A stretch of DNA of 64,000 bases from Sabellastarte sp. h YS-2021 (Eukaryota > Annelida > Polychaeta > Sabellida > Sabellidae). The stretch is from positions 21,387,464 to 21,451,463 of the forward strand of contig OZ024929.1 of NCBI GenBank assembly GCA_964017235.1. The letters run 5' to 3'. Under the pieces are notes generated by a model, which searched no databases, was not told where the DNA came from, and was given only the letters and a program-made list of their open reading frames with translations. The translations under genes were made by a program, and so were the position numbers. Below are positions 3,066-62,689 of this stretch, one piece after another (positions within the stretch are counted from its first letter, which is position 1; every line of letters starts with the position of its first letter).

Positions 3066-3433
3066 GTGACGTTATAACCAACAATATTAGGAATAGTGTG
3101 AAGAAAATTCATTTTTTCGTCATACTATCTAAATATGAGGAATTATTTTATTCAATATCTTCCTTCATCATATGCATGTGACAATATTGAGGGAGGAGAG
3201 AAATATTATTGTTGCAATCCAAGATCCTAGGCCATGATACAATAAATAACAAAATATCTTAATGCTGGCATAATCCCCCTTTTGTGAAAAAATAAGTGTC
3301 TTTTATGTAGACATAGTTTACATAGCCATACCATAGTGAAATAGCTCTATAAATAGAGCGGTAGAAAGTTAACATTACTTGTGTAGAAATTTTTTTTTCT
3401 TTTTGTATTATTAATATTATTTATGAAATAGAA
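3066..3433. other. No gene seen
   Basis: This is AT-rich sequence between the promoter side of the first gene and the ATPase fragment. Nothing recognisable was found. Confidence 0.4.
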
Positions 3434-10449: not shown

Positions 10450-11752
10450 ATCACCTATATTTGATCTCAGTAATAGGGAGATGTATTTCCACTTGACCTC
10501 AATGTGACCCAACACATAAGCATGTATTCTTGACCAACATATATGCAGGATCTGATAAAGGTGCATGTATTCCTAAACAAAAAAAGTGGACCGTCTCCCA
10601 TCAACCAGATTAATTCTTTGCATTTCAAGTTCGTGGGAGCCAAAATAATAACACCTGTAACCAGGTGTTGTGCATTTCAGCTTCCACCAGCAAACACTAA
10701 TAAAATGACTGTAACCAGAAGTTTTGAATTTTATGTTCCGTCAGAACATTACTCACTGGCCAACAAGTATGGGCTGCCTCTTAAACATTAACTAATGATT
10801 GTGTAGCAAAGGAAAAACTTGTCACTCAACAGATTATATATAGTAAGATCCTGACACCCATTTTATGGACAAGAAAAAACAAGTCAAGAGATTCCACTAG
10901 ATATGAATAGATATGCGATTAGCTGTACTATGCAATAAAGTAAAACTGTGTTATCTTCAATTTATTAAGTGTACATCAATTAAAATGACCATATTATATT
11001 AAATATGTACCACATATTAAAGTACCAGAAAGTCCAGTAGTTAAATTGTAATAAAAAGTCCATAATAATAAGTATTTATATCACAAATTAATAGTTTCTA
11101 TATTGTGGGTGTGGCGTGTTCAGCACTGTTCTTCAAGGATCTCAATACAGGGGTGGGCACTGGGTGAGGATTTCAGAATGATTTATCCAAACCTGAAAAC
11201 TTAGAAATGCTCATGTAACTTATATGCCCTGAGGCTGACGGCTGTTATGAGGATTGGCAGTTGGTTGCAACGGTTGCTAATGAGATATTAAGGAGAAGGC
11301 TTATGGGTGGGCTGGTTCTTCATGCTCCACCTCCGTATTCTGTAATTTTGGGCTACTTGTGTCTCCTGGATCTCTTGAATCTCCTGAGTCTCCTCTATCT
11401 TGGGTACCAACGCTACTCTCCCAACCTTTTTTTCTTCATATATGGTTTTCAAAAGATACATATTGAAACAAAGATATCGAAATATGAAAAACGTGTGCTC
11501 CCCTCAGTGATATTGAAGTTCTGTTCCTATGCTAAGGAAGTCTTTTTATAGCCAGTTGTCATTGATTTGTGGTAGCAGCTGAGGCAAGAACCATTATGAT
11601 TGTTTGCTGTATCATAGTATCAATTCATTGGCCCCACCATCACTCCATGTTATTCTTCACACCTTCACAGTTAGTGGTAGCAAGCCCATAACACGTGAAC
11701 TTTGTGATAGGAACCTGCAGTCCTGTCTACACTAACCAGAATGACATCTTTA
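10450..11752. other. No gene seen
   Basis: Mixed-composition sequence up to the left end of Harbinger H1. Short open frames occur without recognisable motifs. Confidence 0.4.
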
Positions 11753-12248
11753 TGCAGGAGTTCCACTGGAGCCGACCCTGTAACCGACCCTACGACTCTA
11801 GGGTCAGTTGTAAAAGTCGTAGGGTTGTGGGGAAAAGGGTACAAAAATGCTGAGTAGGTTATGAAATCCTTGACAGGATGGTACAGTTACAGACAGGACG
11901 TGATGAGCATCCCAACAAGACATTGGGTCAGGGACGTTTTTTTGATCGGTCAGTCGTAGAAGTGCCATGACAAGCCCTAAACCCCTAACAAACAGACAAG
12001 CCATAAAGACAAACAGACAAGCCGGGAGCATGTTCCCGACCCTTGCCAACAGGACTGATTGTTTCTGTGAGTCGGTATCTATAGTCGGGATCCAGATTCG
12101 GGATCAATATCACACTGTGTAAAACACCCCCCTCCCCTGTGATGTGCCACTCATATCACACTTCAAAGATGACGGCAACACATCAAGAGCAACTGCTTGA
12201 TTATTTAAGGGTCCTTTTGTTTTTTATTGACTTGAATATGTTGTTATC

Positions 12249-12903
12249 ATGATTTCAAGACACAGAAGACAGCAGAACCCAGCACCTGCCCAGCCAGCAC
12301 CACTCCCACCACCCAGAAGGAGGAGGAAGCCACAGAATCTATGGATCATGCCTTGGATACTGCAGAGAGAGGAGAGAGGATGTTACAGAACACTCTTGGA
12401 CAAGCTAATCACTACTGACATACCAGGCTACAGAAACTTCACCGTTATGGAACCAGCATTTTTTTCACTTCTTCTGCTGGGGGATGATGCCTTTGCCTTT
12501 ATGCCTTGGCTGGTCAAGCCATACAGCAGACAACAACTGAGTAGAGAGCAGAGAATAGCTACCTACAGGATATCCAGGGGCAGGAGGGTGGACGAGAACT
12601 CATTTGGTATACTTGTTAAAAGATTCAGTTCAGGATGATGTAGACCACCATGGAGCAGAGGCCAAAAGTAGTGAGAGACATTGTGTTAACATGTGTGGTA
12701 CTACATAACATGTTGAGAAGCCATCAGGAACAGAAGAACCCACTCCAGCCGATGACATACAACCACCACAGGCTGACCAGGGGGAACAGGAACATAATGA
12801 GAACTTTAGAAACCCATTAAGAGAGGCCAGACATCAACGAGACCTACTGAAAGACTACTTCAACAACCTTGGGACACTGGCTGGGCAGGAGGGCAGAATT
12901 TAA
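12249..12903 (+). pseudogene. Harbinger transposase, internally deleted (H1)
   Basis: The start ATG at 12249 leads to a Pro/Arg-rich N terminus and '[19 protein letters not shown]', then '[18 protein letters not shown]'. It jumps directly to '[15 protein letters not shown]' and '[15 protein letters not shown]'. Compared with the H2 copy (minus strand, 43747-42171), the middle of the DDE nuclease is missing, including both catalytic Asp regions; only the Glu region remains. Frameshifts near 12620 and 12740 precede VVRDIVLTCVVLHNMLRS and the C-terminal LKDYFNNLGTLAGQEGRI, which ends at TAA 12901-12903. It would cut and insert the element if intact. A histone-type hairpin lies 33 nt after the stop. 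Confidence 0.85.
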
Positions 12904-12936
12904 GAAGACTGAGGGGAGAACATGTTGTCATCTATC

Positions 12937-12952
12937 AGTCCTTTTCAGGACT
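12937..12952 (+). terminator. Histone-type 3' stem-loop after the H1 transposase gene
   Basis: AGTCCT-TTTC-AGGACT has a 6-bp perfect stem and a UUUC loop, followed by ACC. It starts 33 nt after the stop codon. 'ccaagaac' lies about 15 nt downstream, where histone genes carry the purine-rich U7-binding element. The first stem pair is A-U where histones have G-C. Confidence 0.6.
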
Positions 12953-13537
12953 ACCGAAATAATCCAAGAACTTTTATTTAGTGAAATAACCCCAATTTTC
13001 TAACAATTTAATGCAAATTCAATTTCACCAAAAATAATCCCCATCACAAACATAAATCCCTCCTAAAATCATTTCTCCTAAAATTTAATATCAACTCATA
13101 CCGATTTAAACCCAGGTCCTCAATTTACAAAGTTCACATGCAATACCAACCTGACCTTGGTTTATTGTAAGAAAAAATAATCAGCAAATTATAAGAAAAA
13201 AACACCCAATTTTCATAATGAACTCTGCCCCAAATATCACAGGAAACACAATTTTGATTAAAAATTTTGTCTCCAAATTTAATAAAAAGAAATTTAAACA
13301 AAAATTTCAGAAACAAATTTGTACAAGGTGACAGTCCCAGTGTAACATTTTTAGTCACTCTGTCAGTCTGTCAGTCGCCCAATTATCAGTCATATCTTTC
13401 AATGTTTTTTATGTTGCACCACCGTCTGTTTTTCTGTCCCTCCAGACATTCCAAACAATCTACTTGTCTGAATGTTGGATTTCATTTAAATTATTGTTTT
13501 TGGAGGGATGTGGACTGGTGTCTGGATCTTTGTTTTA

Positions 13538-13571
<34 letters not shown>

Positions 13572-13819
13572 TTGGGGGGGGGGGGGGGGAATTTCCTTTT
13601 CAAATTATCTTTTTTGTTATTGGGGGGTGTTTTGTATTCTTAGGGGACATTGTTCAAAATTTTTTCATTTTTTGTGGTGGAACTTTATTAATATTTGTTC
13701 CACATTCACTCATTCCTTCACATAATTTTTTCGTGTATTTGGGGGAAGTGTAAGTGTTGGACAATGTGCTTTTTTTGGGGGGGGTGCAACAACAATAATT
13801 GTTTTTGGAAGGTTTGGGT
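12953..13819. other. H1 spacer between convergent genes
   Basis: The transposase side is C/A-rich (repeated 'caaatt', 'ataatccc'). A (TA)n-T(n)-G(n) low-complexity tract follows at 13538-13589. The MADF side is T/G-rich. The plus-strand open frames through the T/G tract are low-complexity artefacts. Confidence 0.6.
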
Positions 13820-13835
13820 GGCCCTTATAAGGGCC
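13820..13835 (-). terminator. Histone-consensus 3' stem-loop after the H1 MADF gene
   Basis: On the minus strand it reads CCAACC-GGCCCT-TATA-AGGGCC-ACCCA. This fits the metazoan histone mRNA element (GGYYYU stem, U-x-U-x loop, ARRRCC stem, CCAA 5' flank, ACCCA 3' flank). It begins 35 nt after the TAA at 13873-13871. Downstream, TTCCAAAAACAATTA matches the same position in H2 (34731 onward). Confidence 0.7.
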
Positions 13836-13870
13836 GGTTGGTGTGACTTGGTGCAGGCTGATCTGCTCAT

Positions 13871-15355
13871 TTAGGCTGACTTTGCTGGCTGGACTGTCTG
13901 GGAGGTCTTGACTGTTCTTGCCACTAGTGACGGTGCTGGTTGAAGTTGAGAGGGTAAAAATGGTTGAGTGTCAATGTGCTGGTACTGCAGTTTACTCGGA
14001 ATCCCTCCAAAGAGACTGGATAATCCAGAAGTGTTGTTGACTTTCCTCCTGTTGTGAAGCTGCAACTGAAGGTGGGTTGACTGTCTTCGTTGAACTCAAA
14101 GTGAGCATCAGCTGTCTGGTAGTCGCAGGCTGTTGGTCATCCACAACTAAATAAGATGTTGGCTGTGCTGACACTGATGCAGGCCCCTGCAGTTGCTGTA
14201 CTTTGGCAATCACTGTTGCAGGCTGTGTTGTGGCTATCTGTGTAGGCTGCACAACTTGTATGGAGACTGGTGGAGTATCTGGTATGGTGAGTATGTATTC
14301 ACATCCTGCTGTGGCCTGTGTTGCTTCTGGAAGTTGAAATGTGGTGACCTGTTGACTTGTTGTTACCTGTCTCTTGCATTCATCAGCCTTTTACTGTCTT
14401 TCACTGAGAAGTTTCACTGTCACATTCCTGAAAGTCAAAAAGTCTCGCTCCTCCAGGTGTTCAATCTCAGAGTGGAGATAGATGCAGAAAAACTGTCTTG
14501 GACTTGGAGTGGGGTCCTGACGTGCACCCAGAAATGTGGAAATCATCAACCTCATCTGCTGGAACTGATCTAAAACTGGATCCTCAGCAGTGGTGGTGGC
14601 GACTGCAGGTTGTTGTCATTTAGGACTGGTGTTCAAAGGCTGATGAATAACATCTGATGTCATGCTGATTTCCATTTCAGATTCAGTCTCTTGTGAACTG
14701 AAGTATCCGGAACTGAAGCTGTGGCTACAATGCAGAAGGTCTCAGTGGTGACTTGAATGCAGAAGACTTAGAAACTAGCTTTCTTCTGATGTGACCCCGT
14801 AGAAAATTGAAACTGTCCTTCAGCGTGGTCTGTCGTTCCGTGCTCTTCTCAGCTGCATGGCGTGACTTTGTCTGAGTGAGCTTGCCATATCTGTTACGTT
14901 GATTCTCGAACCACTTCTTGACAGTGTTGACAGTTAAGTTAATGGTAGCTGCTAGTGTCTCCCAAAGTCTTTCTTTCTTCTGCTTGTCTTTGAACTTGTT
15001 GTTGGTCTTGTTATAAAGTTCCTCGTGCTGTTTAATGAATGCCACGATGGCTTCTTTGTCTTAATCACTCAGGAAAATGGACTTCATTTGCCACTTCTTC
15101 TGTCTGGATTGAGTGAATTCTACATCAGTATCCGGGTCTATTCGTGGTCTCTTTTCTATCCTTTCCTAGCTGTCTTCCCTCCTCTCTCTCTCTATCCTCT
15201 GTCGTTTCCCTCTCCTCTTGCTGTCGCCTCTCCCTCTCATCCCTCTCTTCTCTCTCCATCCTTCTTTTCTGTATATCCTCAGCTGTATCTCCTAACTTGA
15301 ACTATGGTTGACTATCTCTGGGTACTTCAATCTTTCTCCTTCTGCCCCTTGGCAT
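13871..15355 (-). pseudogene. Harbinger second protein, MADF/SANT-like (H1), broken
   Basis: The ATG at 15355 opens a very charged Arg/Glu-rich N terminus (MPRGRRRKIEV). The DNA-binding domain follows: DKEAIVAFIKQHEELYNKTN...LWETLAATINL...VKKWFENQRNRYGKL, then FLRGHIRRKL. The tail is rich in Gln, Thr, Ser and Pro and ends QPAKSA-TAA at 13871. An in-frame TAA lies just before DKEAIV, and frameshifts break the tail. In PIF/Harbinger elements the second protein helps the transposase enter the nucleus and find the element ends. The counterpart in H2 is at 33456-34671. Confidence 0.8.
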
Positions 15356-15508
15356 GCTGATCAATTACATGTACAGCTTGTTGTAAAAAACAAAACTTAA
15401 ATTTTAACTTAAGCTAATTTACAAAAACATAAAAAACTTAAAATCAAAGCTGCACACCTGTTGTCTCTTGAAAACCCCAAATATACGCAGATTGTCTGCC
15501 GATTGGCC

Positions 15509-15516
15509 TTTTTATA
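15509..15516 (-). promoter_or_regulatory. TATA box with CCAAT element, H1 MADF gene
   Basis: The minus strand reads CTATAAAAAGGCCAATCGG. The TATAAAAA lies about 155 bp upstream of the ATG at 15355, so the 5' leader would be about 125 nt. Note that the CCAAT lies just downstream of the TATA here. Confidence 0.55.
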
Positions 15517-15844
15517 GCCACAGATTTGGAAACTGACAGGCCGTAAGAAGCAAAAATATTGCCGGCCTGTCAGTTACAGTTCCCGGCTTGTCTGTTAGTA
15601 TTACAGGCCTGTCGGTTACAGATCCCGGCTTGTCTGTTTCAGTTTACAGCCTGTCAGTTATCAAAACTCCTGACCCTGGGACCCAGTCGTGAAAAGTTAC
15701 CAACTGGCCTGGAAAGTTTACAGGCCTGTCAGGAACACTTACAGACAGGCCGGCTAAAGTTACCGACTGTACTGTAACATTTCCCGCACAGTCTGTTTGT
15801 CATCACCTGCATTAAAGAGATTAATTTGCCACTAATTATTATGA

Positions 15845-36971: not shown

Positions 36972-39900
36972 ATGGAACCAAACAAAAATAAAAGTATACT
37001 ACAGTGGAACTGTCGTGGCTTTAGGCCAAATTTTGAAGAAATTAAAAATTTAATTTCCAATTTTAGACCCTACATTTTAGCACTGCAGGAAACTCATTTT
37101 AAATATACAGATAATGTACATATTAGAGGAATTGATCATTATTTTAAAACTTGTATGTCTGAATTAAAGTAGATGGGAGAGCCACTGGTGGCTGCTCTAT
37201 TTTTGTTAAGAAAAGTATACCTCATGAGGTACTTGAGTTAGATACAGAACTGCAGGCAGTTGCTTTAAAAGTATCTCTACATAAAACTATGACTGTATGT
37301 AATGTATATATTCCACCACATTCTAATGTTGCACAAAGTGATCTTGATAATCTAGTCAACCAGTTACCTGCACCTTTTCTATTTATTGGAGATTTTAATG
37401 CACATAGTGATTTATGGGGTTATTCCTCATCTAATAGTTTAGGCAATAAGGTGGAACATCTTCTTGAATCCTCTAATATTTGTTTGCTTAATGATAAGTC
37501 ACCTACCTACTTTCATCCTGCATCAGGTTCATTCACTTCAATAGATTTGTCTTTATGTTCTGCATCTGTTGTTCTTGATTTTCAATGGCAGGTCCATTCA
37601 GATCAGTGTGGTAGTGACCATTTTCTTATTTTTATTGATATAGTTAAGAGTATGCCAAAGGACAATGTTCCTCGTTGGAATCTAAAAAAGGCCGATTGGC
37701 CAAAATTCAAACTTCACTGTTCTTTGGATATCAATAGACAGAGTTTTACTGATATAACAGAAAAGTTTCCTGCATTTTTAAATAAATTAAGTGACAAAGC
37801 AACAAAATGTGTGCCAAAGTCAACTGGACAGTCCACTGGTATCTACAAACCATGGTTCAACAGTGAATGCAAAAAAGCTGTTAAAGCTCGTCAAAATGCA
37901 ATGGATAAATGCCGTATAAATCCTACATCAGATAACATAAATGAATATAAAAACTGTCGAGCTAATGCTCGTAAAGTAATTAAAGAAAATAAAAGGAAAT
38001 CATGGCATGAATATGTATCAAAACTAAATGTAAAAACACCAGCAAAGAAGGTATGGGAAATGATCAGAAAAATAAGTGGCAAACAAAGTAACACCACAAT
38101 ACACCATCTAGAAAATAATGATGGGACAAAAATAACAGAAAAAGTGGATATAGCAAATAGGTTGGCCCAAGAAATCAGCAAAAATTCTAGCAGCAACAAT
38201 TACCGTACAAAGTTTCAAAAATATCAAGAGAAAGCTGAAAAAGAACACTTGGATTTTGACACAGACCACTCTGAAAACTGAAACCATTTACCATTAGAGA
38301 ACTATTTGATACTCTGGAAAAGTCTCATGACACAGCCACTGGTCCAGATCAAAGTCAAAGTCAAAGTTGGGGTTTAACGTCCAATTCAACAGCCAGGGTC
38401 ATATTGGGACAGGTCCTCAGCATTGCCACTTGTGGGACTCAAACCCACAGAGGTGACAGCCTATGATTAGATGCCAAACTTGCTAACCACTAGGCCACCG
38501 AGGACCCTCGCCACTGGTCCAGATGAAATTCAGTATCAACTGCTTAAACATCTACCAAGAGACTCACTTATGCTGTTACTTGATATATTGAATGATATAT
38601 GGGCTTCAGGTAAAATTCCTGAATGCTGGAAAGAGGCCACTGTAATACCTATTCCTAAACCAGGCAAAGACTCAAAAAACCCGTCCAATTATCGCCCCAT
38701 ATCCCTGACAAGCTGTTTATGCAAAACCATGGAAAGAATGATTAATACTAGATTAGTTTGGTTCCTTGAGAAAATAATATTCTAACAAAATATCAACGTG
38801 GTTTTAGAAAAGGTCGAACTACAACAGACCAATTAATAAGACTTGAATCTTTTATTCGAGACTTATAAGGCAACCATGTAGTCTCTGTATTTTTTTATTT
38901 AGAAAAAGCCTACAATACTGTTTGGAAATATGGTGTTATAAGAGATCTACATAAAGTAGGCTTAAGGGGGTGAATGCCTATGTTTATTCAGAATTTTTTA
39001 AGCAACAGAGTTTTTAGAGTTCGTTTAGGGTCTGTCTATAGTAATATACATGAACAAGAAATGGGTGTCCCTCAAGGCAGTATCCTATCTGTTACTCTAT
39101 TTATTTTAAAGATCAACAGTATTGCTGATGTGATTCCAGCTAGCTTTGAAAAGTCTCTTTTGTTGATGATTTCTCAATTACTTGTTCTTCTAGAAATATG
39201 GCTTCAATAGAAAGGCAACTTTAGTTGTGTTTGAATAAGGTAGAAAAATGGGCTGATGAAAATGGTTTTAAATTTTCTAAAACCAAAACTGTTTGCATGC
39301 ATTTCTGTAACAAAAGAAAAATTCATCCAGACCCAACATTGACAATATATAATTCACAAATCCCTGTTGTTTCACAAACTAAGTTCCTTGGTGTTATATT
39401 TGACAGTAAACTGAATTTTAAGGCACACATTGATTATATTCGTCAGAAATGTAAAAAAGCCATGAACTTACTGAAAGTAGTTGCCAAAATGGATTGGGGA
39501 GCAGATAGAAGTGTTTTATTGAGACTTTATCATTCATTTGTCCATTCTAGATTGGAATATGGTTGTGCTGTTTTTAGTTCTGCTCGAAAGTCATATTTTA
39601 AGAAATTGGAACCCATTCAAAACCAAGGCTTAAGAATATGCCTGGGAGCCTTCAGGACTTCTCCAATGCAAAGCTTGTATGTTGAGGCAAATTAACCCCC
39701 TTTATATCTCAGGTTTGATAAGTTATGTGTTCAATATGCTTTGAAATTGAGAAGTAATCCTGACAATCCAGCTTATGATGTTGTTTTTAACCCCCAGTAT
39801 TATGATCTGTATGATAAGAAACCATCTGCAATAAGATCTTTTGGGCATCGTGTAGAGGAAGATTTGTCTGTTGTCTGTCCTCAGCTGGATCTAATTCAGA

Positions 39901-40844
39901 CTATGTCTTTGCCAGATGACCCACCCTGGACTATACAGAAACCTCACATAGACTTATTTCTCACCCATCAAAAAAAACATCTTGGTGATGATTGTATGTT
40001 TCAAAGTCTATTTGCTGAGTTAAAAAGTTATTACTCTGACCATATGGCTGTATATGCTGATGGATCAAAAACAGAAAATAGGGTTGCGGCAGCTGCTACA
40101 TCTGATGGCCTCAGTGCCCAAGTCAGACTTCCTGGCAATGCTAGCATATTCACAGCTGAATTACAGGTTCTTAAAATGGCTTTTAATATTGTTAAAAATT
40201 ATGATGGGGATCGTTTTATCATATTCACTGATTCTTTATCTAGTCTTCAAGCTCTTGATAGCAACAACTGTGATCATCCTTTTATTCAAGATATCTTAAA
40301 ACTTTTTAATGATTGTTTGTTAGTGAATAAGAAAGTTGTTGTAGCTTGGATTCCAAGTCACGTAGGCATAAAGGGCAATAAAAAAGCAGACGAGCTTGCC
40401 AAACAGGCCTTGAATTTTAATGTTTTAGACTTGAAAGTCCCCTATACAGACTTGAAAGTGAATGTAAATAGTGTTTTTAAACAAAAGTGGCAAGCTCAAT
40501 GGAATGCGTGTCCTGATAACAAACTATTTCAAATAAACCCTACAGTAGGAGATTTTTATGTTTGGACGGGTTTATCTCGTAGGGAGAAAATAGTTATCAC
40601 TCGAGCCCGTATAGGACACACCTATTTCACACACAGTTATCTGTTGAAAGGTGAAGATATGCCTTGGTGCATTCCATGTCATTGTCCTGATACAGTCAAG
40701 CATATATTATTAGACTGTATTGACCTACTTGACACTAGAATTAAATATTACAGAAATATAAACTCAATAAAAAATTTATTTAATGAAAATATTTTTAATG
40801 TCATCAATTATTTAAAAGAAGTTGGTTTGTTCAAAAAGTTTTAA
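36972..40844 (+). pseudogene. I-clade LINE ORF2: endonuclease, RT, RNase H; broken
   Basis: Endonuclease: SILQWNCRGFRPNFEEIKNL and ALQETH, a stop and shift at about 37170, then GDFNAHSDLWG and GSDHFLIF. RT: NYRPISLTSCLCKTMERM, RGFRKGRTTTDQLIRLESF, MGVPQGSILSVTLF; the catalytic block is FVDDFS in a shifted frame at about 39155. RNase H (39741-40844): YADGSKTENRVAAAA, FTAELQVLKMA, FTDSLSSLQAL, WIPSHVGIKGNKKADELA, then a CCHC-like tail WCIPCHCPDTVKHILLDC. The last 367 codons are uninterrupted; upstream parts carry several stops. Confidence 0.88.
38350..38509 (-). mobile_element. SINE-2 in the LINE ORF2, 15-bp target duplication
   Basis: GCCACTGGTCCAGAT occurs at 38335-38349 and 38510-38524. On the minus strand the A box is TGGCCTAGTGGTTAGCAA and the B box TGGGTTTGAGTCCCACAA. 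The 3' domain is 'aatatgaccctggctgttga' then 'cgttaaaccccaactttgac'. It splits the conserved ATGPDEI block of the RT domain. Confidence 0.95.
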
Positions 40845-41683: not shown

Positions 41684-41701
41684 GTAGTCCTGAAAAGGAT
41701 T
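41684..41701 (-). terminator. Histone-type 3' stem-loop on the H2 transposase side
   Basis: The minus strand reads AATCCT-TTTC-AGGACT-ACCAAAAA. It is the same hairpin as after the H1 transposase (AGTCCT-TTTC-AGGACT-ACC), with one stem mismatch. The distance to the stop cannot be judged, because a 411-bp insert breaks the transposase C terminus. Confidence 0.5.
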
Positions 41702-41750
41702 GGTTATTAATTCTGAAAAGTGCCAGGCCACCGCTCCCTCATTATTGAAG

Positions 41751-42161
41751 AAAAAGGAAAATTTCAAGTTTCAAAATTCAAAAATGTTCAAAATTATTTG
41801 CATATATACATGAATATATTTAAGTGTTTCAGCAAAAAGGAAGAATGGTTTAAACAATTTTACACACTAACAGAAAATATACTGATTAATTTATATAAAA
41901 CAAAAATCTATAAATAGACTTAAACAAACCATATTGTAATGTATGCACATTAAAGACTTTAACTATTTTGAATAAGTATTAAAACTAAGTTGTTAAAATA
42001 TTGAAGTTGTTAAAAAATATTGAAGTGTGAAAAATTACAGTTGGCCTATTATTGTGAACTAGTCATACTGTGCATGATATGCACTGTACAGCACTTGATG
42101 GGGGGTTGGCTACCCTACCAAGTGCTTGTAAAAAAAGGGTAAAAAAATGTGTGGAAAAAAT
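41751..42161. mobile_element. Unidentified 411-bp insert with 10-bp flanking repeat
   Basis: ATTATTGAAG lies at both 41741-41750 and 42162-42171. The frame of the transposase (LKDYFNN) runs up to one copy and diverges inside the insert. The insert is AT-rich with an inner hairpin (agcacttg ... caagtgct, about 42090-42128). The family is unknown. Confidence 0.55.
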
Positions 42162-42170
42162 ATTATTGAA

Positions 42171-43747
42171 GTAGTCCTTGAGGTAATCCCTCAGTCTTTT
42201 GGCTTCTCTGGCAGGGTTTCTGTCATGGCCACCATCAGCAGCACCACCAATCAACTGACCATCACCAGGCACATCATCATCATCATCATCAACAGGCTGT
42301 TGACCACCATGTTGACCTTGATACTGGCTTCTCAGTATGTTGTGCAGAACCACACAGGTCAAGACCACATCCCTAAATGTTTCTGGGGGTTGTTCAATAG
42401 TGGTCATCATCACTCTGAATCTTCAGACCACATTTCCCCTACTTCCTCTGCCTTACTTTCTGCTTTTAGACAGCACCTATTGTTATGATGGGTGTTTGGG
42501 TGAATTGCTGCTTGAGATAAAAAATTTAGGTTCAAAAATCTAAATTATAGGGTTCAAATATAATTACTAGTTATTGGGAGGGGGTTACTCCTGATGCTTA
42601 CTCCTCAAGGAGCACACATATATATTGCAATTGCACAGGTATATTAATGGTGCCCTTGCAATTGCAATGTCATCACAGGAATTACACTATTTACGTGTTA
42701 TGCATGATAATGGACTCTTGTAGTCAGTGACACTACTAGTTATGATGGACTGTTATATGTATATAGACTGCTATAAATCTACTATATAATGCTTACAAGA
42801 ACATTTTAGATGATATTAGAATAAAAAGCGGGGCAAAAGCGTTCTCAACAACTCTCCTGCCCCTTGATATTCTGTAGTTGGCAATCCTTTCCTCTCTGGT
42901 TAACATCCTTCTGCCATAGGATTTCATGAGCCAGGTCTTCAGGGCAAACGCATCATCTGCCAGGATGAAGTAGGGGACATCTCGACCACCCTGGGTTATA
43001 GGTGCTGGGTCAGGGAAGCCTATGCTGCCATCGTCAAGCTTCCTCTTCAGGTGACAGGTATTAAATATCTGGGCATCTGAGCAAGATCCAGCTGTACCCA
43101 CATCCACCCATCTGAACTTGTACTGTCCATCAACCAAGGCCAACATTGCTATTGAAAAGAATCCCTTATAGTTGTGGTATAGGGCTCCAGAGTTCTTGGA
43201 TTTCATCAGGGCCACATGCTTGCCATCAAGGACTCCCAGGGCATGTGGAACATTCCACCTGATCCTGTTTCCAGTTCTTTCCACTCATCTGGAGTAGTAG
43301 GACATCTGAGGTACTCTCTCGTGAACTCATCCTGGATGGCCCTGCAGACCTCTGGTAGAAACTTGGAAATGGTGGATCTTCCAACAACTGACAGAATAAT
43401 GATGTGTATGACCCTCCAGTGGCCAGATATCTGATGGTGAGGGCTAACTTTTTCCCAACACTGATTGGAGCTCTGTAGTTGGTGGCCTGCCTGGCTAGAC
43501 ATGGTTCCAGTCTGGTCTTTATCATTTCAAAGGATTCTGGGGTCATCCTCATGAAATTTGTGAATCCTGGAATGTCTGTGGCATACAGTTCAGCCATAAT
43601 GTTGTGGTAGGCCCCCCTCTCCTCTCTCTGTAGTAGCCATGGCCTGACCCACATGTTGTGCCTTCTTCTAGGTCTCTGTCTGGCTGGTGGTAGTGGTGGT
43701 GCTGCTGGTTGTGGTTGCTGTGGTCGACGTAGAAATAGCAAATACAT
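42171..43747 (-). pseudogene. Harbinger transposase (H2), broken
   Basis: N terminus: a Pro/Gln/Arg-rich stretch, then MWVRPWLLQREERGAYHNIM. Middle: TDIPGFTNFMRMTPESFEM, LALTIRYLATGGSYTSL, VGRSTISKFLPEVCRAI. DDE nuclease: [12 protein letters not shown] (first Asp), [11 protein letters not shown] (second Asp), [13 protein letters not shown] and [13 protein letters not shown] (Glu). The C terminus FRDVVLTCVVLHNILRS lies beyond a DIRS fragment inserted at 42434-42822. There are frameshifts near 43400 and 43240. It aligns with the deleted H1 copy at 12249-12903. All three catalytic residues can be read, although the frame is broken. Confidence 0.88.
42434..42822 (+). mobile_element. DIRS 3'-end fragment inside the H2 transposase
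   Basis: About 389 bp match the reverse complement of 45897-46287 at roughly 96 percent by eye. The fragment starts in the last codons of the tyrosine recombinase (SPTSSALLSAFRQHLLL) and runs to the same outer end ('gatgatattagaat'). It cuts the transposase between VVENAF and the VVLTC block. Confidence 0.88.
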
Positions 43748-43814
43748 CAGTATATGTAACTATATGTAATCCTGCTGTGTTCCTAGAAAACTAATGATGA
43801 TTACATCCCGGAAT

Positions 43815-46230: not shown

Positions 46231-47170
46231 TCATAACAGTAGGTGCTGTCTAAAAGCAGAAAGTAAGGCAGAGGAAGTAGGGGAATGTGCATGTATATAA
46301 CGCCAGACTGTGTCTGACACCCACGTCCCCTGAGATTTTATAGCTTCCACAGGAACCCCATGGTTATATGCCCAGGAGGCGCCAGACCTCCTAAATGTGT
46401 GAAAGGTATACTCATCATTTTGCAGGCCGAGGAGCACCAGCACCCTCTTCAGATGCTTTCTGACCATGTTATCTGTTAATGGTAGTACTGAATCATGTGT
46501 ATGAGTAGCAAAAAGTGGATCGTTATCAGATCCAAGGACAAGTGCAATCATTGCTTTAAGTGCTGTGACTGGACAAAGGGATGATCCAGGAAGAAAAGAA
46601 ACCCTAACAGTAACAATTTTGTCCCTGATATGGATGGCTTCTGTGGATGAAAAAATTACATCCCCTCTAGCTAAGCGTCTAATGTAATCATACTGAGCTC
46701 TACTATGTGGAACAATTTTTGACAATCTCATAAATGAGAAAAAAGCCAACAAATAAACAGTGGTAAACACATGAGGATGTTCTATATAAGTACAAACTTG
46801 CACAGTCTCAGAAACAATGTGTTCAGTAAAAATAGGGGTATTTCTAAGGTGCAAGGGTCTATTCAACTTTAGTACTTTGATAAAGTACTGAATCTTCTGG
46901 TCTTTAAAGATAGTAGTAGGCAAGTCATATAATATAAAGAAAGCTCTGAGAGCCGCCATATAGTTACTGATACTGGCCACTTTACAGTTCTGTGAATGGA
47001 GATATTCCATGAAAGTTAACATTACAGAAATATCTACCTGTTGCAGTGACCCGGAAACCAAAGAAGTCATGAAACATCCTCGAGTAACATCTCTGAGTAC
47101 CTGGTCTGAAGGCTTCAAACAAACGTCCAAATGCCCTGATGGTCAGCTGAGCTATCACTGGAAGAGGACC
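46231..47170 (-). pseudogene. DIRS tyrosine recombinase, one frameshift
   Basis: The N-terminal part (IRAFGRLFEAFRPGTQRCYS) is in another frame from the 299-codon remainder; the shift is near 47050. The catalytic arginine is in FFSFMRLSKIV. The H-x-x-R box is YTFHTFRRSGASWAYNHG. The last block is GTWVSDTVWRYIHA, with the likely nucleophile Tyr. This enzyme integrates circular DNA copies and makes no target duplication. The gene ends FRQHLLL-TAA-type at about 46231. Confidence 0.85.
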
Positions 47171-47175
47171 TACAA

Positions 47176-47734
47176 CTATATATCATAATTTAGACATGTT
47201 AAATCAATGTGTGTGGGTATCCACTGAGGACAAGTTATATATTGGTTAAGTTTAGGATAGGAATCTTCATCAAATTTAAATCTAGATAACAAATCTGCCA
47301 CTGCATTATCTCTGCCAGGAATGTGATCTACCTGTAAAGTGATGTTATACAATGAGGACAATAACCATATATTTCTGGTGTGTCTGGCTAATACCTTGTC
47401 CTTCGTCTTGCCAGAAGCAAGAACTTCATCCACTGCCATATTATCACATTGAATTCGAAACTTTCAATTATTCCACTGATTTGCCCATATCTTGAGAGCC
47501 ACCAAAACATTTAACATCTCTAGATGGACTATTGCATTGTTCTGAAAATCTTTAGGAATGGTAGGGCATACCATTGTCGACCATAAACACCCCCTAAACC
47601 TGTTAAACAGGCATCAAGACATAAATCAGCTGATACTGGTCTGACATCATAAAATACAACCCCATTGAATTGTCTTAGGAATAAAGAAAACCAGTTGAGG
47701 CCTTTAAAAATTCGTTAGATAAGAATATAGTATC
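47176..47734 (-). pseudogene. DIRS RNase H domain
   Basis: The minus strand reads LNWFSLFLRQFNGVVFYD then SADLCLDACLTGLGGCLW. Further on come MAVDEVLASGKTKDKVL and NITLQVDHIPGRDNAVADLL, the usual end of RT-linked RNase H. The upstream join to RT is cut by the CR1-like LINE. Confidence 0.78.
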
Positions 47735-50252
47735 ATTATTGGCATTATACCTCTAATCTTGCCCAAAATGTTAATAAAGCTACCCACTTGCATGGTCATA
47801 CACTGGATCTGATACTTAGCCCAAGCGATTCCTCCTTTGTCAGTAATGTGACAGTTGGGGAAATGGTCTCAGATCATGCACTGGTGAAATGTCATTTGGA
47901 TTTTGCATGCCCTGCAGTACCGAAGGTTGACAGTATTTCTTACCGCAGGTACCATAAAATCAATATGAAGAGCTTTTGTGAGGATCTTGCAAACACATCC
48001 TTTGTCACATCTCCTGCTATAGTGGCTGCAGACCTGTATGACCAGTATATTCGTGACCTTGGTGGTGTGTTGGACAGGCATGCACCATTGATTTGTCGAA
48101 GAGCTAAGAAAACACCAGCTGGATGGCTGTCAGATTCTTACCGTAGGGCCAAATCTCTTAGGCGTCAATTTGAGCGCATGTGGCGTAGGGATAGGTCACA
48201 GTTGAGCAGAAGTAGATTGCGCAGACAGATTGCCCGGGGCAATGCAATCATAAATAGAGACAAGGCTGAATACTATAGCACCATCATTAGTGATAACAGC
48301 CGTGACCCAAAGAAGTTATGGCATACACTTCGTCAAGTCCTCAATAGTGGTCAAGAGAGTACTCTCCCTCCTCATCAGTCTGAGAAATCCTTAGCAAACA
48401 AATTTGCTTCCTTCTTTCATAAAAAAATCAAAAGGATTCGTGATATTTTCACAGCCTCTTCGGCAAGTGTCATATCACCCATGTGTACACCTCCCAACCT
48501 ACCTTCCTTCAATGAGGTCTCGGAGGACGAGGTACTAAAAATCATCAAAAATTCCCCTACAAAATCATGTCTTTTAGATCCAGTCCCTACTTTTCTTTTG
48601 AAAGATTGTGTGGAAATTTTACTCCCGTCAATTACAAAACTTGTCAATCTGTCATTGGCTGAGGGTGTATTTCCTCAAAAATTCAAGAAGGCAGTTGTCA
48701 CTCCTCTCATTAAGAAAGCATCACTTCCAAATGAGGATTTGCAAAATTATCGACCGGTATCAGGACTATGTTTCATGTCAAAATTGGTGGAGCGCGTAGT
48801 TGTTAAACAGCTCATGCAACATATCAACAGTAACAATCTTGATAATCCTAGGCAATCTGCATACAAAAGTTGTCACTCCACAGAAACCGCCCTGCTGCTT
48901 ATCAAAAATGAGATCCATCTCTCACTATCACGGGGCGAGCCTACTGCATTGGTCTTACTGGATCTGTCAGCTGCGTTCGACACAATTGACCACCCGACTC
49001 TTCTTAATTGTCTTAAATCATGGTTTGGTGTGTCTGGCACAGCCTTGAAGTGGTTCACGTCCTATCTCAGCCACCGTTTCCAGGCAATTAAAATTGGGTC
49101 AACCCTCTCTGATTTGCATGAGCTGTTGTTTGGAGTACCACAAGGCTCCGTCCTTGGTCCTCTGCTGTTCTCCTTATACACCACTCCTTTGAGTAAGGTT
49201 ATTGGAACGCATCCTGACATCAAATACCACTTTTATGCAGACGACACGCAGTTGTTTATTCATATCTCTCACAAAAATGCAGCCCTGGCTTTTAACAAAC
49301 TGAATTCTTGTCTTCTGGATGTTCAAAAATGGATGTCGTCAAGTATGCTCAAACTAAATCCTGACAAAACAGAGTTTATCATCTTTGGATCCCATGCACA
49401 ACTCAAGAAATTAGATCCCTATCTCCCAGTTAAGATATTTGGTAATTTCATGCATCCTGCAGTTGTTGTTAAGAACCTTGGTGTCTGGTTTGATGCTAAT
49501 TTTTCCTTTGCTAACCATGTCCGCAATATTTGTAAGACATGCTTCATTCAAATTCGTGATCTCAGGCGGGTTAGAAAGCACTTGACTGATGAGGCTGCTA
49601 TCCTGGCAGCTAATGCCTTGGTGAGCAGTCGCCTTGATTACTGCAACTCTCTCTTCAGGAGTCTGTCCAGTCTCAATATGCGTAAACTACAGTGTATTCA
49701 AAATACACTTGCCAGGATTGTCACAAACTGTAACAAATACACGCGGGCATCTCCTATTCTCAAATGACTCCATTGGCTCCCAGTTGAATCTCGCTGTATC
49801 TTCAAAACTGCCACTCTAGTTTATAAGTTTCTTCACAGTGGTCATCCCAGTTACTTTGGTCCTCTTCTGCCCACTCGTTGCGGAAGATATAGTACAAGAT
49901 ACAACCATCCAGATAAAAGGTTCCTGGAGGTTCCTCAATTCTGTCCATCTGTACATAAATCCAAAAATCACTTTGGCCACAGCTTTGCTTTTGATGCCCC
50001 CACAATCTGGAATCATTTGCCTAATGAGGTACGTTCTACCCCAACTCTCACCTGTTTCAGGAAAAGGTTAAAATCATATCTCTTCCACAAGGTATTCCCT
50101 CCTTAGCATACACTCTATCCGGCGTCTCCGTGGTACTGGACTTGGCAACGGCTATGGACAGATGATTTCTTAAACTTGATTTTTGGTGTTGCGCCTTAGA
50201 GTCTGCCTTGCAGAGATTAAGCGCTATAAAAGTACAGAATAGAATAGAATCA
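47735..50252 (+). mobile_element. CR1-like LINE, 5'-truncated, one nonsense codon
   Basis: It starts inside the endonuclease (NKATHLHGHTLDLILS). RT blocks: NYRPVSGLCFMSKLVERVVV, LLDLSAAFDTIDHPTLL, GVPQGSVLGPLLFSLY, and the catalytic YHFYADDTQLF. The single in-frame TGA at 49765-49767 interrupts ILK-LHWLPV. Otherwise the frame is open to TAG at 50104-50106, after LKSYLFHKVFPP. The 3' end has 'gcgccttagagtctgccttg' and the AGAATAGAATAGAAT tail (50236-50250). The target duplication could not be fixed. Confidence 0.88.
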
Positions 50253-62099: not shown

Positions 62100-62230
62100 T
62101 ACAAAGAAATTCCAACTGAGACACATCCACAGCTGGTCTAGATCTCAGGTGGTCACCCATCCAAGTACTAACATAGCCCATTGCCGCTTAACTTCAGTGA
62201 GCAGATGAATACTCATCACGCTGCGGCACA
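62100..62230 (-). mobile_element. 5S-rRNA-derived SINE head
   Basis: The minus strand has 'tctgctcactgaagttaagc' then 'ggc', followed by 'tgttagtacttggatgggtg' and 'accacctgagatct'. This is the 5S rRNA internal promoter (A box, intermediate element and C box region). It differs from genuine 5S at many positions and lacks the 5S ends. Confidence 0.78.
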
Positions 62231-62689
62231 ATTGATGAAAAACCGGAGACAAAATATAAAAGTGATCTGTAAATTCATGAGCTCTTTCGAGGCTCGCGCT
62301 TAAAAAGTGAGTGTGGGTGCCAGTAGGTACACCGTCATGAATTGGTCCACCACTGCCCCATTTATTTTTTATGAACAGAACCAAATAATAGTGTAATTAA
62401 AATAAAATGTTTGTAAAGACAAGTTAAAATTGGTTTCTGGAGCAAAGATTAAGTTTTTGTCTGTTAATAAAGGTTAATTTTTGTCAGAAATGGGCATTTT
62501 TTTTGTTAAAATTCCCATTTTTGTCTTTCAGGACCACTGCCATAAAATTCTTATTACCCCTGGCCAAGAAATTTATGTTTGGGGGTGCATTTATTTGTCT
62601 GCATTCACAATTACTCTAAAACTAATGAACGGATCATTTTGTGGGTGTAGCTTGAACAATATATTCTCGCCAAGCACCTGTACCTTGTA

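Follow-up and report, generated by a model that had tools for sequence, protein, structure and literature searches.

Why would the genes of a DNA transposon end in the type of hairpin that ends replication-dependent histone mRNAs? The question is raised by a 64-kb stretch of the genome of the annelid Sabellastarte sp. h YS-2021 (contig OZ024929.1, positions 21,387,464 to 21,451,463; hereafter the window), in which Harbinger H1, a decayed element of the PIF/Harbinger class, carries a histone-type stem-loop behind each of its two convergent genes, one for a DDE transposase and one for a MADF-like, DNA-binding protein. Our answer is that a large PIF/Harbinger lineage probably ends both genes with the 3' processing signals of replication-dependent histone genes and that its mRNAs would be processed by SLBP and U7, a reading to which we assign a probability of roughly 0.8. 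Comparison of sequences across the genome confirmed that the hairpins are histone-type 3' ends which belong to the transposon family and stand behind both genes.

Behind the transposase gene of Harbinger H1, the stem AGTCCT-TTTC-AGGACT-ACC starts 33 nt past the stop codon TAA at 12901-12903 (+ strand; stem 12937-12952, 12937-12955 with ACC), and behind the opposing MADF gene, GGCCCT-TATA-AGGGCC-ACC starts 35 nt past the TAA at 13873-13871 (− strand; stem 13835-13820, ACC at 13819-13817). A downstream element begins 11 nt past each stem, CCAAGAAC at 12964-12971 (+) and CCAAAAAC at 13808-13801 (−). Taken at greater length, the first reads CCAAGAACTTTTATTTA (12964-12980, +) and is of the type of the host H2B gene (TCAAGAACTTTTATTTA), and the second reads CCAAAAACAATTATT (13794-13808, −) and is of the type of the host H3 and linker histone H1 genes (CCAAAAACAATTAAT). 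In a search of the window with 4227 Rfam families, the MADF side gave the sole match at gathering level, to RF00032 (Histone3), with 34.9 bits over 13795-13840 (gathering cut-off 34; E-value 2.3e-6 for the whole 64 kb). The transposase-side match (12932-12977) stayed below the cut-off with 27.4 bits and had E-values of 0.0013 for the whole window and 2.5e-5 within a 1.2-kb stretch. Both matches span the full model length, including the downstream element. A strict motif scan, written after the motif had been seen, found two occurrences in the window and none in 60 Markov resamplings. An earlier note on this DNA had placed the stem-loops 33 and 35 nt past the two TAAs, had described purine-rich elements 10-15 nt downstream, and had judged the MADF-side hairpin to fit the metazoan histone element; these readings agree with our results. 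A correction concerns the genes themselves, which in this copy are both broken by stops and frameshifts: the transposase remnant (12241-12903, +), delimited by alignment with a second copy and by tblastn to the loci L040 and L046, is internally deleted and frameshifted, and the MADF-like remnant (13871-15355, −), whose relatives in L035, L034, and L049 match Pfam PF10545, contains many stops.

The same signals recur throughout the genome (1.786 Gb in 647 contigs). RF00032 gave at least 75 matches over the cut-off, a lower bound because only 75 of 382,297 first-look candidates were scored, and all 75 passed; in 14 prokaryote genomes used as controls, no match exceeded the cut-off. A single array on contig C4 (31.445-31.509 Mb, 1932-bp spacing with one larger gap) holds 32 of the 75, and linker-histone 3' ends were found at all 19 loci fetched from it (L012-L030; L012 corresponds to PF00538). 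It is a tandem array of 1932-bp units that contain a linker-histone gene ending in a canonical histone 3' end. Among the 43 matches elsewhere, 27 were examined for proteins, and 25 lay at Harbinger proteins (L031-L050, L002-L005, and L010). This includes 20 of 20 dispersed loci (L031-L050), assigned by tblastn, four of them (L042, L045, L047, and L048) via the MADF part only. The match in L007 belongs to an H3 gene adjoining an H2B gene, and L009 has a MADF-type stem without a protein match among the matches listed; the 16 matches outside the protein check include four in a cluster on contig C2 (27.6-27.7 Mb). RF00032 scores of MADF-side relatives reach 43.6 bits. The exact transposase-side 19-mer AGTCCTTTTCAGGACTACC occurs at 3196 genome sites and the exact MADF-side 19-mer GGCCCTTTTCAGGGCCACC at 1966, and neither pattern occurs when read backwards. 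Their arrangement was evaluated on contig C1 up to 51.64 Mb, which is the span of the first 100 transposase-side sites and holds 58 MADF-side sites. Forty-six of these 58 face a transposase-side site at a distance of 410-1388 nt (median 1040), and none has a partner in any other arrangement within 3 kb, where about 0.67 would be expected by chance. In the same stretch, the 19-mer lies 333-389 nt downstream of four of six transposase matches and is missing from two.

As the loci L031-L050 had been picked by the stem-loop, a second sample was drawn by transposase alone: 20 evenly spaced entries were taken from the 150 scored transposase matches, each with 401 nt at the expected 3' end. The strict motif together with a downstream element was present in 16 of the 20. 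RF00032 matches were obtained in 17 (21.6-31.7 bits, all below the cut-off of 34). The earlier note had named absence of the hairpin from other family members as evidence to the contrary; this objection fails, as 17 of 20 elements picked by their transposase have it, and the exceptions are broken inside the stem (L051) or lack the transposase 3' end (L052 and L067). In the strict scan of L031-L050, the MADF-side stem-loop was identified in 19 of 20 loci (in L040 it was seen by Rfam only) and the transposase-side stem-loop in 14 (L031, L032, L033, L035, L036, L038, L039, L040, L041, L043, L044, L045, L046, and L050); in L037 and L048, the latter is altered. In the main family, the transposase side carries one, two, or three tandem stem-loops with a 23-nt unit, and ACC and the downstream element follow the last one only. 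Two or three stem-loops were observed in L031, L035, L036, L039, L043, L044, L050, L056, and others. A further tandem was noted on the MADF side of L046 (4883-4930, +), where an AGTCCT-type stem-loop is followed by a GGCCCT-type one, with ACC on both.

The signals are also the best-preserved part of the region between the two genes. The 966-nt spacer of Harbinger H1 was compared with 44 loci, including 20 host histone loci (19 from one array) and near-identical or overlapping transposon loci, and the alignment with loci outside its own family was confined to two islands, 12936-12971 and 13794-13839, with few matches extending further, to 12909 and 13844; because RF00032 had supplied the loci, selection accounts for part of the MADF-side island, though not of the transposase-side one. 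Across 26 main-family copies, retrieved with a tolerance of two mismatches, substitutions per site on the transposase side amounted to 1.0% in the stem-loop, 1.4% in the downstream element, and 2.4% in the coding end, and to 4.0% just upstream (the stretch with the extra stem-loops) and 6-8.1% just downstream, with higher values farther out. In 13 MADF-side copies, a biased set chosen by RF00032, the stem-loop had 0.4% and the downstream element 3.5%, versus 8-11%. In 46 aligned 3' ends (42 distinct), 98.4% of the stem cells were paired, and covariation reached 0.380 compared to 0.201 in shuffled alignments (0 of 500 shuffles), while the numbers of pairs changed on both sides (three) and of further pair types (six) were no higher than in the shuffles. 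Stem pairs 1, 3, and 4 vary on both sides. Most rows came from scans in which ACC, a T-A closing pair, a T at the first and third loop positions, and pairing at five of the six stem positions were prerequisites; pairing is therefore partly imposed, and only changes at the remaining pairs are informative. Uncompensated stem changes, which the earlier note had named as evidence to the contrary, are thus mostly absent, but in rows that were in part supplied on condition of pairing. A G at stem position 7 was present in 39 of the 42 distinct rows, the exceptions being the transposase sides of the second copy in the window (Harbinger H2), L038, and L040. According to PMC10388802, the sole base-specific hydrogen bonds of SLBP are made to this G, which SLBP needs.

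Host histone genes were used for comparison. The host H3, linker histone H1, and H2B genes end in GGCTCT-TTTC-AGAGCC-ACC, with stop-to-stem distances of 33, 34, and 34 nt versus 33 and 35 nt in the window, and their downstream element lies 11 nt past the stem (CCAAAAACAATTAATA in H3 and linker histone H1, the type described above in H2B). The first type (CCAAAAACAATTAATA) recurs at 10 nt on the transposase side of the main family and, usually at 10 or 11 nt, on the MADF side; the H2B type is found at 11 nt on the transposase side of Harbinger H1, L040, and L045. Like the replication-dependent histone 3' end described by RF00032, the transposon ends have a 6-bp stem, a 4-nt loop with U at positions 1 and 3, ACC, and, in 39 of 42 rows, G7, and in the window, also the 11-nt distance to the downstream element and the 33-35 nt between stop and stem. 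They differ in ending transposon genes, in their stems (AGTCCT/AGGACT and GGCCCT/AGGGCC instead of GGCTCT/AGAGCC), and, on the transposase side of the main family, in the 10-nt distance and the frequent presence of two or three tandem stem-loops. In most alignments, similarity to the host begins at or near the stem and stops about 40-66 nt past the stem start, a few running further upstream; this extent is compatible with a captured histone 3' end as well as with selection for U7 pairing.

Four other explanations were considered. The elements might merely lie in or beside histone clusters, so that the signals would be those of the host, as the 32 of 75 scored RF00032 matches in one histone array could suggest; however, the signals are enclosed by terminal inverted repeats (TIRs) with TWA or ATA flanks, and thousands of copies carry transposon-specific stems, so that copy counts and TIRs led us to reject this explanation as next to impossible. 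It is very improbable, too, that the hairpins act as DNA, i.e., as cruciforms or transposase-binding palindromes with a chance likeness to histone ends. Short palindromes would not be out of place inside a DNA transposon, but ACC and the downstream element are strand-specific and stand on the coding strand after the stop, the matches cover the full RF00032 model, and of the 58 sites examined, none stood near its partner in a different arrangement. An ancestral Harbinger could instead have captured a histone 3' end that spread with the element and is now inert, the mRNAs being polyadenylated at a downstream AATAAA. The extent of the host similarity agrees with such a capture, as do the AATAAA and ATTAAA motifs downstream and a distant relative that has AATAAA and no hairpin behind its transposase. 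Yet there are two differently paired stems, neither like the host stem, and the islands are kept between families whose spacer fails to align, although passengers should decay like the spacer. Since the substitution rate in the stem-loop is also low and the signal stands behind both genes at a histone-like distance, we regard an inert passenger as unlikely.

Slightly less probable still is a functional stem-loop without U7 cleavage, in which polyadenylated mRNAs would be bound by SLBP for export, storage, or translation, e.g., in oocytes or cleaving embryos. Poly(A) signals are present, and polyadenylated histone mRNAs that retain the stem-loop occur in Slbp-mutant flies, according to PMC2781718. 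Those fly genes, with a stem-loop and usable poly(A) sites, illustrate that both signals can co-occur; they differ from the present case in encoding histones instead of a transposase and a DNA-binding partner. Against this explanation, the downstream element is conserved as well, in both host histone types, although cleavage removes it. Several observations also weigh against the SLBP/U7 reading that we favour. In the AT-rich spacer, both hairpins are followed by AATAAA and ATTAAA motifs, at which polyadenylation could occur. The strict scan found no transposase-side stem-loop in L034, L042, L047, and L049, and no MADF-side stem-loop in L040. In L038 (2788-3920), a distant Harbinger with a DDE domain 39% identical retains the hairpin on the MADF side (4981, −), but has none behind the transposase by the same scan, and AATAAA motifs occur directly after the transposase stop and about 250 nt further on. 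In Harbinger H2, one stem pair is mismatched and the downstream element is damaged. To these are added the partial selection effect in the MADF-side island and the fact that the paired changes in the stems for the most part distinguish three lineages (transposase side, MADF side, and host), and therefore represent few independent events. Finally, an Rfam search of the genome for U7 yielded 20 matches, all below the threshold, and no U7 was identified. Five of these 20 were examined (L071-L075, 24.7-31 bits) and rejected as U7 candidates, as they are part of a dispersed repeat and show no complementarity with the downstream elements; sub-threshold U7 matches were also obtained in control genomes of bacteria and archaea.

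If the histone-type ends are processed as we propose, SLBP would bind the stem-loop of the transposon pre-mRNA, and the U7 small nuclear ribonucleoprotein would bind the downstream element, through a U7 5' end that complements CCAAAAACAATTAAT, CAAGAACTTTTATTT, or both; a pair of U7 variants would account for the two types of element. For histone pre-mRNAs, PMC5636114 describes base-pairing of U7 with the downstream element and cleavage between stem and element, with no polyadenylation. The transposon transcripts would likewise be cut between stem-loop and downstream element, without polyadenylation, and SLBP would mediate their export and translation. The two proteins would then be produced at the same time and solely in settings with plentiful SLBP, i.e., in S phase, in cleaving embryos, or in the germ line. 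An SLBP/U7 route for both messages would thus confine them to S phase or to further states with high SLBP, and transposition may benefit from this, perhaps, as the earlier note proposed, through moves near replication forks.

Regarding its class, Harbinger H1 (11753-15811) is, by its genes and relatives, a decayed PIF/Harbinger element. Its ends, TGCAGG and CCTGCA, are alike over only 6 bp and are flanked on both sides by TTA (11750-11752 and 15812-15814). Similarity to L040 ends at most 7 nt from both ends, and similarity to L045 at most 6 nt from the right end. Among intact relatives, DDE_Tnp_4 was identified in L039 with 113.3 bits and MADF (PF10545) in L035 with 44 bits, the latter also in L034 and L049. 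Single open frames span the transposase (436 aa, L039) and the MADF protein (339 aa, L035), and the two convergent genes are apparently intronless. A dedicated terminus search, which replaced a noisy search for exact 12-mer TIRs, gave the TIR termini TGCCCCTGTTCCACC and TGTGGGTGTTCCACC, flanked by TTA, TAA, or ATA, nearly always TTA or TAA. In eight relatives with both ends found, the flanks were equal in four (TTA, TTA, TAA, and ATA) and TTA versus TAA in four, an agreement that does not exceed what random drawing from TTA and TAA would give, so that exact target duplication is not proved. Of 7990 candidates scored in a transposase protein search, 2637 were relatives at an E-value of 1e-20 or below; in the viral sequence collection, no transposase relative was found (three pattern stretches, none confirmed) and no stretch with the motif. 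The elements thus share with known PIF/Harbinger transposons the two-gene layout, the DDE_Tnp_4 and Myb/SANT-MADF domains, and TIRs with TWA or ATA flanks.

Harbinger H2 was recognized by its transposase region (41686-43760, −), with DDE_Tnp_4 in 43284-42796 (78.3 bits). Its stem-loop AATCCT-TTTC-AGGACT-ACC, from 41701 (−), has one mismatched pair and received no RF00032 score in the search of the window. An insert at about 42160-41740 (−) parts the transposase 3' end and reading frame of this copy from the stem-loop. Other features of the window comprise a Phage_integrase-type recombinase (−) beside a reverse transcriptase (+) at 46234-49764, possibly a tyrosine-recombinase retroelement, LINE-like pieces with endonuclease (Exo_endo_phos_2) and RNase H domains at 37289-40844, and a sub-threshold 5S rRNA-like match at 62121-62239 (−; 32.4 bits) that may represent a SINE derived from 5S.

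In the part of the open-licence literature that was surveyed, titles and the beginnings of abstracts contain no description of histone-type 3' ends in transposons, and this is where the present elements differ from known PIF/Harbinger transposons. A 2009 paper calls the histone stem-loop unique to histone mRNAs and reports no evidence of SLBP roles outside histone production (PMC2781718). If our reading is correct, a transposon with the stem-loop on both genes and in thousands of copies breaks this histone-only rule. Its messages would constitute the first case of abundant, natural use of the SLBP/U7 pathway outside histones, on the transposase side with one to three tandem stem-loops, and their variant stems and downstream elements would form a natural set for work on SLBP and U7. 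On balance, we consider it rather probable that this transposon lineage has come to use the machinery for histone pre-mRNAs, with thousands of copies, both genes under SLBP/U7, and transposase and partner synchronized with replication. This would reveal a route by which a mobile element couples its proteins to S phase, and the question of how cut-and-paste elements gain from replication timing would become directly testable.

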